Assembly (NCBI GenBank): GCA_002841155.1 | Contig: PHEH01000002.1 | Coordinates: 62,001-126,000, forward strand | Source: Alphaproteobacteria bacterium HGW-Alphaproteobacteria-18 | Lineage (GTDB): Bacteria > Pseudomonadota > Alphaproteobacteria > Caulobacterales > Hyphomonadaceae | Reading direction: 5' to 3' | DNA: 64,000 bases | In this document: positions 12,959-17,189 of the stretch, piece by piece | How the letters are laid out: each line of letters begins with the position of its first letter | How positions within the stretch are numbered: position 1 is the first letter of the stretch | Position numbers and translations under genes: made by a program | The notes under the pieces: model-generated | Seen by the model: the letters and a program-made list of their open reading frames with translations, nothing else | Database searches by the model: none | Told to the model about the DNA's origin: nothing

Positions 12959-13909
12959 ATGCACCCTGCCATCCTGATACACGGCCCCACCGCCAGCGGA
13001 AAATCCGCCCTTGCCATTGAACTGGCCCGCAAGCTCGGCGGGGAGGTAATTAATGCCGATTCCATGCAGGTTTACAGCGACTTGCAGGTCATTTCTGCCC
13101 GCCCAACCGAGGAAGAGATGGCCGGCGTGCCCCATCACCTGTTCGGCTATGTGGATGCGGCAACGCGCTATTCGACCGGGGAATGGCTGGAAGCGGCACG
13201 CCGCGTGCTGGGCCGGCTTCAACGGCAGAACAAGCATGCGGTGATTGTCGGTGGCACGGGGCTATACCTTCTGGCGCTGACTCAGGGGCTTTCCGACATT
13301 CCGCCGGTGCCCGATGACATCCGCGCGGAGGTGAAGGCCATCTCCGAGGCCGAGGGCGCCGAGGGCCTGCGGGCGCGGCTGGCGCCGCATGATCCTGATC
13401 TGGCCGAACGGCTTGGGACCGGCGACCGGCAACGGCTGGCCCGGGCCTATGAGGTGTGGCTGGCGACCGGGCGGCCGCTCAGCGATTTCCAGAATGAGCG
13501 CCAGCCACCCGTGCTGAAAGAAGGCGAATGGGTCGGCTTTGCCCTCACCCCGCCCCGCGCCGCGCTCTACAAGAAGATCGACCGGCGGTTTGAAGGCATG
13601 CTGATGCAGGGCGCCGTGACTGAAGCGCAGGCCCTGGTTGCCCGCAATCTCAATCCCGAACTTCCCGCCATGAAGGCGCTGGGCATGCCCTCGATTGCCG
13701 CCTTCGTGCGTGGCGAGATCAGCGCAGAGGAAGCGGCCGAAAGCGCCAAACGCGAGTCAAGGCGCTATGCCAAAAGGCAATTTACCTGGATTGGCCGGCA
13801 ATTTCCGTTCTGGCCGCGCATCCCTTCCCCGGAAATCGGCGACCGGATGCGGGTTATTTTTGCCCTCTATCGTGAGATTGACACAGCCGACGCGGAAGAT
13901 TATGCCTGA
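12959..13909 (+). CDS. miaA: tRNA dimethylallyltransferase
   Basis: A 316-residue enzyme that adds a dimethylallyl group to N6 of A37 in tRNAs reading UNN codons. It has the P-loop GPTASGKS (residues 9-16), the DSMQVY substrate motif, VGGTGLYL, and the C-terminal KRESRRYAKRQFTWIGRQ tRNA-binding segment. Length is normal. The promoter of the ilv leader appears to lie inside its last 30 bases. MiaA modification affects leader-peptide decoding in other bacteria, so its position next to an attenuator is worth noting. Confidence 0.95.
   Translation: MHPAILIHGPTASGKSALAIELARKLGGEVINADSMQVYSDLQVISARPTEEEMAGVPHHLFGYVDAATRYSTGEWLEAARRVLGRLQRQNKHAVIVGGTGLYLLALTQGLSDIPPVPDDIRAEVKAISEAEGAEGLRARLAPHDPDLAERLGTGDRQRLARAYEVWLATGRPLSDFQNERQPPVLKEGEWVGFALTPPRAALYKKIDRRFEGMLMQGAVTEAQALVARNLNPELPAMKALGMPSIAAFVRGEISAEEAAESAKRESRRYAKRQFTWIGRQFPFWPRIPSPEIGDRMRVIFALYREIDTADAEDYA
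13878..13906 (+). promoter_or_regulatory. putative promoter of the ilv leader transcript
   Basis: A perfect -35 TTGACA (13878-13883), a 17-base spacer and a partial -10 TATGCC (13901-13906) lie at the very end of miaA. Initiation around 13913 would place the leader-peptide ribosome site and GTG just downstream. The -10 match is only fair. Confidence 0.45.
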
Positions 13910-13934
13910 ACTCCTACGATTGAGGAAACGTCAA

Positions 13935-13973
13935 GTGCGCACACATAAAGTCGTAATTCTTAAGTGCCCGTAG
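13935..13973 (+). CDS. ilv leader peptide with Val-Val-Ile-Leu run
   Basis: GTG start with GAGGA 8 bases upstream, encoding the 12-residue peptide M-R-T-H-K-V-V-I-L-K-C-P and then TAG. Four consecutive codons specify the three branched-chain amino acids that the downstream operon makes. The stop codon lies in the first arm of the following hairpin, the arrangement expected for ribosome-controlled attenuation. An in-frame ATG at 13902 could give a 23-residue version, but it has a poorer ribosome site and overlaps miaA. Confidence 0.75.
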   Translation: MRTHKVVILKCP

Positions 13974-14040
13974 CTGCCCTTCGACCAGGCAGTTGCGGGT
14001 GCGCGCACAAAAGGGCTTCCTCCGGGAGCCCTTTTTTCTT
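13964..14040 (+). promoter_or_regulatory. ilv transcription attenuator (alternative hairpins plus terminator)
   Basis: The first hairpin pairs 13964-13978 with 13988-14002: 15 consecutive pairs including G-T wobbles, loop 13979-13987. The terminator pairs AAGGGCTTCC (14011-14020) with GGGAGCCCTT (14024-14033) around a 3-base loop and runs into six T residues. GCCCTT at 13976-13981 is complementary to the terminator arm AAGGGC (14011-14016) but is tied up when the first hairpin forms. A ribosome stalled on the Val-Val-Ile-Leu codons would block the first hairpin, free GCCCTT and favour the antiterminator. Attenuation of ilv genes is known from enterics and, to my memory, Caulobacter. The fold here is read by eye. 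Confidence 0.75.
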
Positions 14041-14097
14041 GGTCCCTTCGCTCTTTTAACCCCTCGCAGAAAACACCCCTCCCGGAAGCTGAAGCCC

Positions 14098-15894
14098 ATG
14101 AACACCAAGACCAAGGCCAAGCCCGCCGCTGAAACGGCAGACACCTCCACCCCGCGCATGATGACCGGCGCCCAGATCGTCGTCGAGGCCCTCCGGGAAC
14201 AAGGCGTATCGGTGATGTTCGGTTATCCCGGCGGGGCGGTGCTACCGATCTATGATGCGCTCTACGGGCAGGACGCGATCCGCCATATTCTGGTGCGCCA
14301 TGAACAGGGCGCAGGCCATGCGGCCGAAGGCTATGCGCGCTCGACGGGCAAATGCGGTGTGGCGCTGGTCACCTCTGGCCCCGGCGCGACCAATATGGTG
14401 ACCCCGATCACCGATGCGATGATGGACTCGATCCCGATGGTGGTCATCACCGGCCAGGTGCCGACGCATCTGATCGGAACCGATGCCTTCCAGGAATGCG
14501 ACACGACCGGCATCACCCGGACCTGCGCCAAGCACAATTACCTGGTCACGGATGTGAACCAGCTGGCCCGCACGATCCATGAGGCGTTCTATATCGCCAC
14601 CAATGGCCGCCCCGGCCCGGTGGTGATCGACATTCCCAAGGACATCCAGTTTGCGACCGGGCCCTATGTGGGCAAGGCGGGCATCCTGAAGCCGACTTAT
14701 GTGCCCCAGACCGAGCCCCTTCCCGAGGCGATCAAGGCGACGGTGGACCTGATCACCAAAGCCTGGCGGCCGATCTTCTATACCGGTGGCGGCGTGATCA
14801 ATTCCGGGCCGCGGGCATCAAAACTGCTCCGCGAATTGCAGGCGATGACCGGTATTCCGGTGACCTCCACCCTGATGGGCCTTGGCGCCTTCCCGGCCGC
14901 GCATCCTGACTGGCTGGGCATGGTGGGCATGCATGGCAGCTTTGAAGCCAACAATGCCATGCATGACTGCGACCTGATGATCTGCGTCGGCGCGCGGTTT
15001 GATGACCGCGTGACGGGCCGGGTCGATGCCTTCTCCCCCAACTCGAAGAAGGTGCACATCGATATCGATGCCTCCTCGATCAACAAGATCGTGCGGGTGG
15101 ACATTCCGGTGCTGGCTGACTGCGCCCAGGCGCTGGAAGCCATTCTCAAGGAGCTCAAAGCCCGCAAGGCACAGCTGCCAGACCTGGCGCCCTGGAAAGA
15201 AGAGATCGGCGCCTGGCGCGCGCGGCGCTGTTTTGGCTACAAGAACTCCAGCGACGTGATCAAACCGCAATATGCCGTCGAGCGCCTCTACGCGCTGACC
15301 AAGGACCACGACACGTACATCACGACCGAAGTGGGCCAGCACCAGATGTGGGCGGCGCAGTTCTATCATTTCAACGAGCCCAACCGCTGGATGACCTCGG
15401 GCGGCCTCGGCACGATGGGCTATGGCCTGCCTGCCGCTGTGGGCGTCCAGTCAGCCCACCCGGACGCGCTGGTCATCGATATTGCAGGCGAAGCCTCCAT
15501 CCAGATGATGATGCAGGAGCTCTCCACCGCCGTTCAGCACAAGCTGCCGGTGAAGGTGTTCATTCTCAACAATGAATGGATGGGCATGGTGCGCCAGTGG
15601 CAGGAGCTGCTGCATGGCGAGCGCTATTCCCACTCCTATTCGGAAAGCCTGCCGGATTTCGTCAAACTGGCCGATGCGCTGGGCGCCTATGGCATCCGCT
15701 GTGATGATCCTGCCGAGCTGGACGCCAAGATCCTGGAGATGGTGAACCATCCCGGCCCGGTGCTGTTCGACTGCCGGGTGGAGCGGGCCGAGAACTGTCT
15801 GCCGATGATTCCATCGGGATCAGCGCACAACCAGATGATTCTCGGTGAAATAACGGGTAACGAGATCGGAGAGGCTGGCCGCGGGCTGGTCTAG
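14098..15894 (+). CDS. ilvB: acetolactate synthase large subunit
   Basis: A 598-residue thiamine-diphosphate enzyme, catalytic subunit of acetohydroxyacid synthase, the first common step of valine, leucine and isoleucine synthesis. Landmarks: GYPGGAVLPIYDALY, VRHEQGAGHAAEGYAR (catalytic Glu), VTSGPGATNMVTPI, a central FAD-binding region, and the ThDP motif DIAGEASIQMMMQELSTAV followed by ILNNEWMGMVRQW. The frame is open upstream through the terminator, but the ATG at 14098 is the sensible start because it lies after the attenuator. Expression is probably set by that attenuator. Confidence 0.96.
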   Translation: MNTKTKAKPAAETADTSTPRMMTGAQIVVEALREQGVSVMFGYPGGAVLPIYDALYGQDAIRHILVRHEQGAGHAAEGYARSTGKCGVALVTSGPGATNMVTPITDAMMDSIPMVVITGQVPTHLIGTDAFQECDTTGITRTCAKHNYLVTDVNQLARTIHEAFYIATNGRPGPVVIDIPKDIQFATGPYVGKAGILKPTYVPQTEPLPEAIKATVDLITKAWRPIFYTGGGVINSGPRASKLLRELQAMTGIPVTSTLMGLGAFPAAHPDWLGMVGMHGSFEANNAMHDCDLMICVGARFDDRVTGRVDAFSPNSKKVHIDIDASSINKIVRVDIPVLADCAQALEAILKELKARKAQLPDLAPWKEEIGAWRARRCFGYKNSSDVIKPQYAVERLYALTKDHDTYITTEVGQHQMWAAQFYHFNEPNRWMTSGGLGTMGYGLPAAVGVQSAHPDALVIDIAGEASIQMMMQELSTAVQHKLPVKVFILNNEWMGMVRQWQELLHGERYSHSYSESLPDFVKLADALGAYGIRCDDPAELDAKILEMVNHPGPVLFDCRVERAENCLPMIPSGSAHNQMILGEITGNEIGEAGRGLV

Positions 15895-15927: not shown

Positions 15928-16626
15928 ATGGACGCCGCAGGGATCTTCGACTGGCTGAAAGGCAATGGCGAAATCGTCATTGGCATTCTTTCAGCCATCG
16001 TGGCGCTGGGCAGCGCTCTGGTCGCGCGTGGCGAAACGGCCAAGCAGCGCAAATTGCAGACAGAACGCCTGCGCCAGAGCATTGATGCGGCGAGCCTCGA
16101 CTGGGGCGGCGCCGCCATCGATACCCTCGCCCGCTGTGCCATATTTGCCCGCACCCGCCACCTTCACGCCAATGACGCCGCCTTTGTCGCCGCCAGGACG
16201 AACATGTTGATCCAGCTGTCCACCTTGGTGGACCGGGGGCGGATGTTCTTCCCCAATCTCGACGCGTCCGGCAAGAGCGCCGAGAAAGAAGGGGCCTATC
16301 GTGGCAAGCGTCCGCCCATTCTGGACACGCTGATGTTCACCTATCACGAGATTGAAGCCCTCAATCGTGAAGGCGGGCTCCCCTCAGAAGAGAGCGGCGC
16401 TTATATTGATGATTGCCGGCGCCTGCTGGTTTCCGAACTTCAGGCGCATCTTGATCCGCGACGGCTCGACGAAATCGTTGAACGGTATGATGATCAGTCC
16501 CAGGAAAATCGCAAGAAAGCCATAGACAAGGCAGCGAGCCTGCGCGCCCGCTTGCTGGAACGGCGGCCCAACACTTCCCTCGATCGCAGCTTTGCGAGCA
16601 ATACAACACCGGAGCGCCCCCAATGA
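15928..16626 (+). CDS. single-pass membrane protein of unknown function inside the ilv operon
   Basis: A 232-residue protein I do not recognise. It has a short N-terminus, one membrane helix (about residues 14-34, IVIGILSAIVALGSALVA) and then a long charged, mostly helical cytosolic region with a Q/R/K-rich start. It begins 33 bases after ilvB, and its stop overlaps the ilvH start by four bases (ATGA), so it is translationally coupled with the acetolactate synthase small subunit. The layout resembles the protein at 18878, although the sequences do not align obviously. No link to acetolactate synthase is known to me. Confidence 0.7.
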   Translation: MDAAGIFDWLKGNGEIVIGILSAIVALGSALVARGETAKQRKLQTERLRQSIDAASLDWGGAAIDTLARCAIFARTRHLHANDAAFVAARTNMLIQLSTLVDRGRMFFPNLDASGKSAEKEGAYRGKRPPILDTLMFTYHEIEALNREGGLPSEESGAYIDDCRRLLVSELQAHLDPRRLDEIVERYDDQSQENRKKAIDKAASLRARLLERRPNTSLDRSFASNTTPERPQ

Positions 16627-17189
16627 GCGATGGCACCGCCACTCCCGGCCCTGCGCCGAAATCTGCCTATTTCCTTTCCGATGAGGACAAGGAAGTCGAG
16701 CGCCGCACGCTGGCGGTGATTGTTGACAATGAACCCGGCGTTCTGGCGCGGGTCGTCGGGCTGTTCTCCGGACGCGGATATAATATCGACTCGCTGACCG
16801 TTGCCGAAGTGGATGCCAGCCAGCACCGCTCGCGCATCACGATTGTCACGCAGGGTACGGCGCATATACTTGAGCAGATCGAAGCGCAGCTGCTGCGCAT
16901 CGTGCCGGTGGCCGAGGTCATCGATATCACCAATTCCAAGCGCGGGATCGAACGCGAGCTGGCGCTGGTGAAGGTGGCCGGCACGGGCGAGAAGCGGGTT
17001 GAAGCGCTGCGGATCGGCGAGATCTTCCGCGCGCATGTGATCGACACGACGAATGAGAGCTTCATCTTCGAAGTGACCGGCGCCTCCGACAAGCTGACCC
17101 AGTTTGTTGACCTGATGCGCCCGCTGGGGCTTGTCGAAGTGAGCCGTACGGGCGTTCTCTCGATCAAGCGCGGCAAGGAGAAAGGATGA
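16623..17189 (+). CDS. ilvH: acetolactate synthase small (regulatory) subunit
   Basis: A 188-residue regulatory subunit with an N-terminal ACT domain (TLAVIVDNEPGVLARVVGLFSGRGYNIDSLTV) that binds valine for feedback inhibition, and a C-terminal domain (ELALVKVAG... FIFEVTGASDKLTQFVDLMRPLGLVEVSRTG). It pairs with IlvB. Four-base ATGA overlaps exist at both ends, with the unknown genes before and after it. Also called ilvN in some alphaproteobacteria. Confidence 0.95.
   Translation: MSDGTATPGPAPKSAYFLSDEDKEVERRTLAVIVDNEPGVLARVVGLFSGRGYNIDSLTVAEVDASQHRSRITIVTQGTAHILEQIEAQLLRIVPVAEVIDITNSKRGIERELALVKVAGTGEKRVEALRIGEIFRAHVIDTTNESFIFEVTGASDKLTQFVDLMRPLGLVEVSRTGVLSIKRGKEKG

Follow-up and report, generated by a model that had tools for sequence, protein, structure and literature searches.

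Leader-peptide attenuators that sense branched-chain amino acids are already known, and the closest one described is that of C. crescentus, whose ilvBN leader is an attenuator with tandem isoleucine and valine codons (PMC4117421, accessible in part, citing Tarleton, Malakooti and Ely 1994). The locus described here is like it in the operon concerned, in its tandem branched-chain amino acid codons and in its Rho-independent terminator; the likeness is one of description, and the codons differ, being Val-Val-Ile-Leu here and Ile-Val-Leu in the genomes labeled f2/g19, which we take to be Caulobacter. Again by description only, it resembles the rhizobial ilvIH attenuator, a leader element ahead of acetohydroxyacid synthase genes; a cis-regulatory element of S. 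meliloti ilvIH is listed after Vitreschak 2004 in the accessible part of PMC2573895. The seven E. coli leaders trpL, hisL, leuL, thrL, pheL, ilvL and ivbL likewise combine a leader frame containing control codons with a terminator before the first gene, and Rhodobacterales ilvB leaders share codons of the Val-Val-Ile-Val type, the same TTGAC promoter and a terminator. The accessible text of PMC2965389 and PMC10117765 holds nothing on ilvB or ilvI, and among the titles found, with subscription literature thinly covered, none concerned a Hyphomonadaceae ilvB leader or its lack of an antiterminator. The kind of attenuator is already known; this Hyphomonadaceae example is a new one.

The window, that is, the whole 64,000-nucleotide stretch of DNA analyzed here, carries between miaA and ilvB (positions 13878–14037; all features are on the + strand) a promoter, a short leader frame, a hairpin (P) and an intrinsic terminator (T), in this order. 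The upstream gene miaA (12959–13909; tRNA dimethylallyltransferase, Pfam PF01715, E 2.2e-71) carries the promoter, and the gene presumed to be controlled, ilvB (14098–15894), codes for the large subunit of acetohydroxyacid synthase, as recognized by the N, M and C domains of TPP enzymes in Pfam. The small subunit is encoded by ilvN (16623–17189; Pfam PF10369 and PF22629). The two genes are usually adjacent; here, a frame of 232 amino acids without any Pfam match (15928–16626) lies between them. The predicted leader RNA is ∼125 nt long, and the region 13910–14045 folds with an energy of −59.7 kcal/mol (z −5.6), which was equaled by none of 200 shuffled sequences. Judged from sequence comparison, the element is very probably a leader-peptide transcription attenuator of the ilvB–ilvN operon, a reading that follows from compensatory changes in P and T, the codon bias of the leader, the spacing of P, and the recurrence of leader, P, T and promoter. 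The original prediction of a branched-chain amino acid attenuator thus stands for the leader, the protector-type hairpin, the terminator and the promoter, but not for the switch it proposed via a GCCCTT segment, nor for the link it drew to miaA.

For comparison, 105 Hyphomonadaceae genomes (42 of the window's genus) were searched, yielding 97 regions upstream of ilvB. Eight genomes gave no such region, either because the match begins within ilvB (G058, G072 and G099) or because there was no close ilvB (G017, G031, G043, G090 and G095); the loci L002 and L003 are other enzymes. Leaders were defined by script in 94 cases, outside of which are L059 (contig end), L070 (assigned wrongly by the script) and L084 (where it located no start), the latter two of which do show a leader. 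The layout of leader, P and T recurs in nearly all of the 97 family loci and in many other Alphaproteobacteria, and the sequences indicate that the promoter accompanies these three elements both within the family and outside it. Lineage tests comprised 124 sequences from 32 lineages, including Caulobacteraceae, Rhizobiales and Rhodobacterales, with at most three sequences used per lineage; five mixed sequences (label o) were excluded from them and counted among the 33 labels of the folding tests. From named loci, the best 80 of 592 were kept, 76 of which had enough upstream sequence; 20 entered the lineage set, although more than these have a leader. Other families of the order contributed 26 loci, of which 15 were taken into the lineage set, four were unused (L189, L196, L198 and L209), and seven had no leader by script (L192, L193, L205–L208 and L210). 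An ilvB match reaching E 1e-150 was missing from 24 of 50 genomes of these other families (13 of 14 in f4, 6 of 11 in f5, two in f2, namely G105 and G109, and three in f3), which may reflect loss or another enzyme. The Caulobacteraceae loci (f2) have leader, P, T and mostly the same promoter spacing as the window, and one of them (L203) is identical in its leader stretch to a Phenylobacterium locus (L114); unlike in most of the window's family, miaA lies directly upstream in only 4 of 10.

The leader frame (13935–13973) consists of 12 codons, starts with GTG, ends with TAG (13971–13973), and is preceded at a distance of 6 nt by a Shine–Dalgarno sequence, GAGGAAA (13922–13928), of which GAGGAAACG is invariant in 38 genus sequences. 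It reads GTG-CGC-ACA-CAT-AAA-GTC-GTA-ATT-CTT-AAG-TGC-CCG-TAG and codes for the peptide VRTHKVVILKCP (initial residue taken as Met). On both strands of the window, it is the sole frame of 7–20 codons that combines at least four consecutive Val/Ile/Leu codons with a Shine–Dalgarno score of at least five of six. The control codons GTC GTA ATT CTT (13950–13961), predicted originally as a tandem Val-Val-Ile-Leu in a 12-codon leader with its own Shine–Dalgarno sequence, were indeed found conserved in relatives. Among the 94 family leaders, 81 contain four to six consecutive Val/Ile/Leu codons and 13 a run of two; valine is present in 94, leucine in 93 and isoleucine in 69 (absent from 25). Synonymous changes between GTA, GTC and GTT show the leader codons to be conserved at the amino acid level. 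In one clade of the genus (clade B; L008, L009, L011, L012 and L014–L018), the leader reads Val-Val-x-Leu, with lysine, glutamine, threonine or asparagine in place of isoleucine. Nine of 10 clade B leaders have no isoleucine, and their sequences suggest that sensing of isoleucine has been lost and that of valine and leucine retained.

Codon choice in the leaders departs from that of 41 long open reading frames of the window (16,165 codons), which served as the reference. GTA makes up 136 of 235 valine codons (58%, vs 5.6% in the reference), ATT 50 of 80 isoleucine codons (vs 22.4%), and CTG just 26 of 151 leucine codons (vs 43.7%), all counts being non-independent owing to shared descent. For biased control codons in attenuators, selective charging of isoacceptors has been proposed, and rare codons explain the bias only partly (PMC1183508, accessible in part). 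That the structure is a small RNA or riboswitch instead of a peptide-coding leader is scarcely credible in light of this conservation of amino acids through synonymous changes, and no Rfam family reached its gathering score, be it in the window or in 20 ilvB loci (19 from relatives and the window's own). What favors such a reading is a full-length but weak match of 13922–14045 to Atu_C8, a small RNA of Rhizobiales, at 23.1 bits compared with a cut-off of 50 (E 0.015). Atu_C8 may itself be a terminated leader of the ilvB-leader kind.

Hairpin P (13964–14002) comprises 15 pairs between the arms 13964–13978 and 13988–14002, and the leader stop codon sits in its 5′ arm. Across 38 distinct genus sequences aligned with one another, P was paired in 97.2% of cells and five of its pairs had changed on both sides, so that the 15-pair hairpin containing the stop codon was confirmed as predicted. 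Terminator T (14009–14037) has 12 pairs (14009–14020 with 14024–14035), rather than the 10 assigned to it at first, and is followed by the expected T-run (14032–14037); it was paired in 93.0% of cells, with one pair changed on both sides. The score of the whole structure in this alignment was 0.251, compared with 0.178 ± 0.007 for shuffles, and slid versions paired at 37–55%. Cognate arms paired better than non-cognate ones in 32 of 32 lineages, both for P (z −21.7) and for T (z −12.8); as the lineages are related, these z values are a guide and not a probability. Spacing is also kept: the last control codon lies 0–10 nt ahead of P in 128 of 129 sequences and 13 nt in one (2 nt in the window), and the gap between P and T is 0–11 nt in all 129 (6 nt in the window). 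A hairpin preceding a T-run could be picked in 96 of 96 loci scanned, by a script that takes the best one and applies no threshold. The short GCGCAC tail between P and T (14003–14008) is complementary to the leader start, GTGCGC (13935–13940), and the two were paired in 95.2% of genus cells; they are palindromic and pair no better than when slid by −2 (95.6%), and over lineages their z was −1.6 and −2.1 in two samplings.

A scan for E. coli-type promoters found none; the promoter was placed by comparing loci. Its −35 box, TTGACA (13878–13883), lies in the last codons of miaA, and its −10 box, TATGCC (13901–13906), follows 17 nt further on, as located by alignment on TTGAC; transcription would be expected to start at ∼13912–13914. 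Of 129 loci, 128 have a TTGAC in the 90 nt preceding the leader start, usually at −54 to −61; among control windows, 52 of 1,095 contain one. In the window TTGAC is found at −57, matching the ∼54–61 nt promoter spacing of alphaproteobacterial ilvB leaders, and among loci where it lies at −63 to −50, 99% have an A at +24 from its start, and in 78% this position is preceded by a T (lineage-weighted). The nearest TTGAC is closer, at −34 to −45, in Amylibacter, Neomegalonema, the lineages f3b, f3c and f5, and one f2 genome. The original suggestion that the promoter lies inside miaA is thereby borne out, with both boxes in the end of the coding region. C-terminal codons of miaA (Ile-Asp and Tyr-Ala) double as the −35 and −10 boxes (13878–13906), and because the same bases serve both purposes, the promoter and the end of the MiaA protein constrain each other. 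A plain terminator after miaA, combined with a short frame arisen by chance and an ilvB promoter further downstream, would be in keeping with the fact that T is strong on its own and starts 99 nt past the miaA stop codon, but is highly improbable, as the frame, its codon bias, P and the upstream promoter are conserved across the class, also where miaA is absent.

MiaA acts on tRNAs that read UNN codons, and tRNA modification by MiaA had been suggested to feed into the switch. The control codons of the window are GUC GUA AUU CUU. Leucine codons of the 94 family leaders are of the CUN type in 144 of 151 cases, with UUG accounting for seven and UUA for none. UNN codons elsewhere in these leaders number 76, mostly Ser UCN, and six of 40 genus leaders contain the Cys codon seen in the window's clade. 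In the family, miaA lies directly upstream in 89 of 97 loci (one of the eight exceptions is at a contig end). Among the 76 named loci, 32 have a leader without miaA, 30 miaA without a leader, four both and 10 neither (miaA within 420 nt), where a leader was defined by script as a frame of 8–21 residues with at least four consecutive Val/Ile/Leu near its start, a rule that misses some leaders and may admit chance frames; the leader of the Methylobacterium locus L106, for instance, is visible by eye and was missed. The idea of feedback through miaA was rejected on these grounds: leucine codons are mostly CUN, and leader and miaA are separable in gene order. As each occurs without the other, their adjacency is better regarded as a gene arrangement of long standing, from which the leader derives its promoter, and a regulatory loop through miaA is not supported by the sequences.

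From these parts, a course of events can be proposed. By sequence and comparison, the promoter at the end of miaA drives the leader RNA, and the four control codons of its 12-codon frame sit immediately ahead of P. When tRNAs charged with Val, Ile and Leu are abundant, the ribosome would complete the leader and transcription would stop at ∼14037; when they are scarce, the ribosome would stall on the control codons beside P and RNA polymerase would enter ilvB. The step that leads from the stalled ribosome to prevention of termination does not appear, from the sequences compared, to be accounted for by a conserved antiterminator. Originally, the attenuator had been considered complete and its geometry workable, in the classical sense that stalling would free GCCCTT (13976–13981), which would then pair with AAGGGC (14011–14016) of the terminator 5′ arm. 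These six pairs do exist in the window and in the five other members of its clade, with a duplex energy of −10.3 kcal/mol, and the apical part of P is complementary to the terminator arm in Bosea, f3b and Azorhizobium, and partly in f2/g19. However, of the 94 family leaders only six contain the pairing, and these all belong to the clade of the window; in the genus alignment it shows no two-sided change, with 69% of cells paired compared with 61–69% when slid by +1 to +3, and 437 of 500 shuffles pair equally often. Moreover, the first three bases of GCCCTT also belong to the 5′ arm of P, and an apical hairpin (GCUGCC:GGCAGU) persists when the lower arm of P is masked. The loop of P did not stand out against the terminator arm over 32 lineages (z −0.6), nor did its apical arm plus loop (z −0.6). 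The complementarity as such is correct but neither conserved nor covarying, and this form of switch is unlikely. Aligned with its Hyphomonadaceae relatives, the locus therefore retains its control codons and the compensatory changes in P and T, but lacks covariation at GCCCTT.

Other pairings were compared as well. The classical antiterminator, formed by the 3′ arm of P and the 5′ arm of the terminator, paired worse in cognate than in non-cognate combination (z +4.0, with the cognate pair ahead in 4 of 32 lineages), and a local hairpin between the 3′ arm of P and the terminator arm did not surpass its shuffled versions (mean z per clade, −0.6 to +1.3). For the two 5′ arms, that of P and that of the terminator, mutual pairing gave z −3.6 (−2.8 after thinning); it was not adopted because the presence of P precludes it and because the signal comes from few lineages. 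Neither covariation nor folding tests found a classical antiterminator in Hyphomonadaceae or related families.

The folding test gave the cost of freeing the terminator 5′ arm before its 3′ arm is made, with the ribosome at each codon. It used equilibrium energies, an assumed ribosome footprint extending 13 nt 3′ of the A site, and no pseudoknots, proteins or kinetics; as such it cannot exclude a kinetic or protein-aided antiterminator. Stalled and finished translation were separated in 7 of 7 E. coli attenuators, with a maximum of 8.4–18.4 kcal/mol on the control codons and 0–3.7 at the stop codon; without a ribosome, the cost was 0.1–4.4 kcal/mol, except for ivbL (16.5). In contrast to these seven, in which the hold on the terminator arm depends on where the ribosome stands, it hardly does so in the window: the six sequences of its clade gave means of at most 4.8 kcal/mol on a Val/Ile/Leu codon, 3.4 at the stop and 1.8 without a ribosome. 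Hyphomonadaceae clades in general ranged from 1.9 to 6.8 kcal/mol on Val/Ile/Leu codons and from 2.0 to 4.4 at the stop, and f2/g19 had 1.9 and 0.3. Over the 33 lineage labels, the mean maximum was 4.3 kcal/mol, and 2.7 without a ribosome. According to this model, the terminator arm is only weakly held in the window's family wherever the ribosome stands, which, together with the fate of the GCCCTT pairing, leaves the idea of a complete attenuator unsupported.

Some lineages do switch (control codons/stop): Bosea at 10.7/1.6, Amylibacter at 6.8/1.7, and Rhodobacterales at 7.4/1.4 kcal/mol (means of 12 sequences). In Rhodobacterales, unlike in the window, P abuts T, and by the same model their leaders are a more classical switch than those of the window's family. 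In most Rhodobacterales loci among L120–L172, the leader peptide terminates with Arg-Met-Gly-Arg, and the codons for these four residues make up the 5′ arm of P. In Methylobacterium (9.9/7.1) and Azorhizobium (8.5/9.5), the terminator arm was held in both states. When the upstream sequence was shuffled (20 shuffles each), E. coli leaders had z values of 1.3–6.9, whereas the alphaproteobacterial mean was −0.46 (33 lineage labels, one sequence each), that is, at chance level; the highest were Bosea (2.3), g10 (1.2) and Rhodobacterales (1.0). The power of single sequences is limited in this test, as trpL (z 1.5) and leuL (z 1.3) each had 2 of 20 shuffles as high.

The leader's own ribosome binding site might serve as the antiterminator, with the Shine–Dalgarno sequence GAGGAA pairing with UUCCUC (14017–14022) and the start GUGCGC with GCGCAC, so that a stalled ribosome would leave the Shine–Dalgarno sequence free and block reloading. 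When the upstream RNA was included, freeing the terminator arm cost 6.7, 11.7 and 7.0 kcal/mol in clades A, B and C, and an initiating ribosome lowered this to 3.0, 2.4 and 2.9; a cognate gain for the Shine–Dalgarno sequence plus start was also seen in six genus clades. Yet a ribosome at the stop (6.6, 10.7 and 6.6 kcal/mol) hardly differs from one on the control codons (at most 7.3, 9.6 and 6.9) in these three clades, the cost on control codons is at most 5 kcal/mol in clades D–F and most other lineages, and the Shine–Dalgarno sequence reached only z −2.0 against the terminator arm over 32 lineages, with no two-sided change in the genus. Pairing of this kind, which only some members of the genus and a small number of further lineages show, was rejected as a candidate; as an explanation of the switch, it is very unlikely.

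Tentatively, and with more doubt than confidence, we propose that the Hyphomonadaceae and Caulobacteraceae ilvB leaders may be a class of attenuators without a competing antiterminator, in which a ribosome stalled against P, a few nucleotides short of the terminator, would block termination not through refolding but by contact or by occluding the RNA at the polymerase exit, and in which complementarity between the 3′ arm of P and the terminator would even be avoided. Such a switch is, in itself, unsurprising as a means of amino acid control. What sets it apart from textbook attenuators is that, in this large family, selection has preserved the sensor, the hairpin and the terminator, whereas the refolding element expected between them is not visible, a contrast that bears on whether ribosome-mediated attenuation needs any antiterminator.
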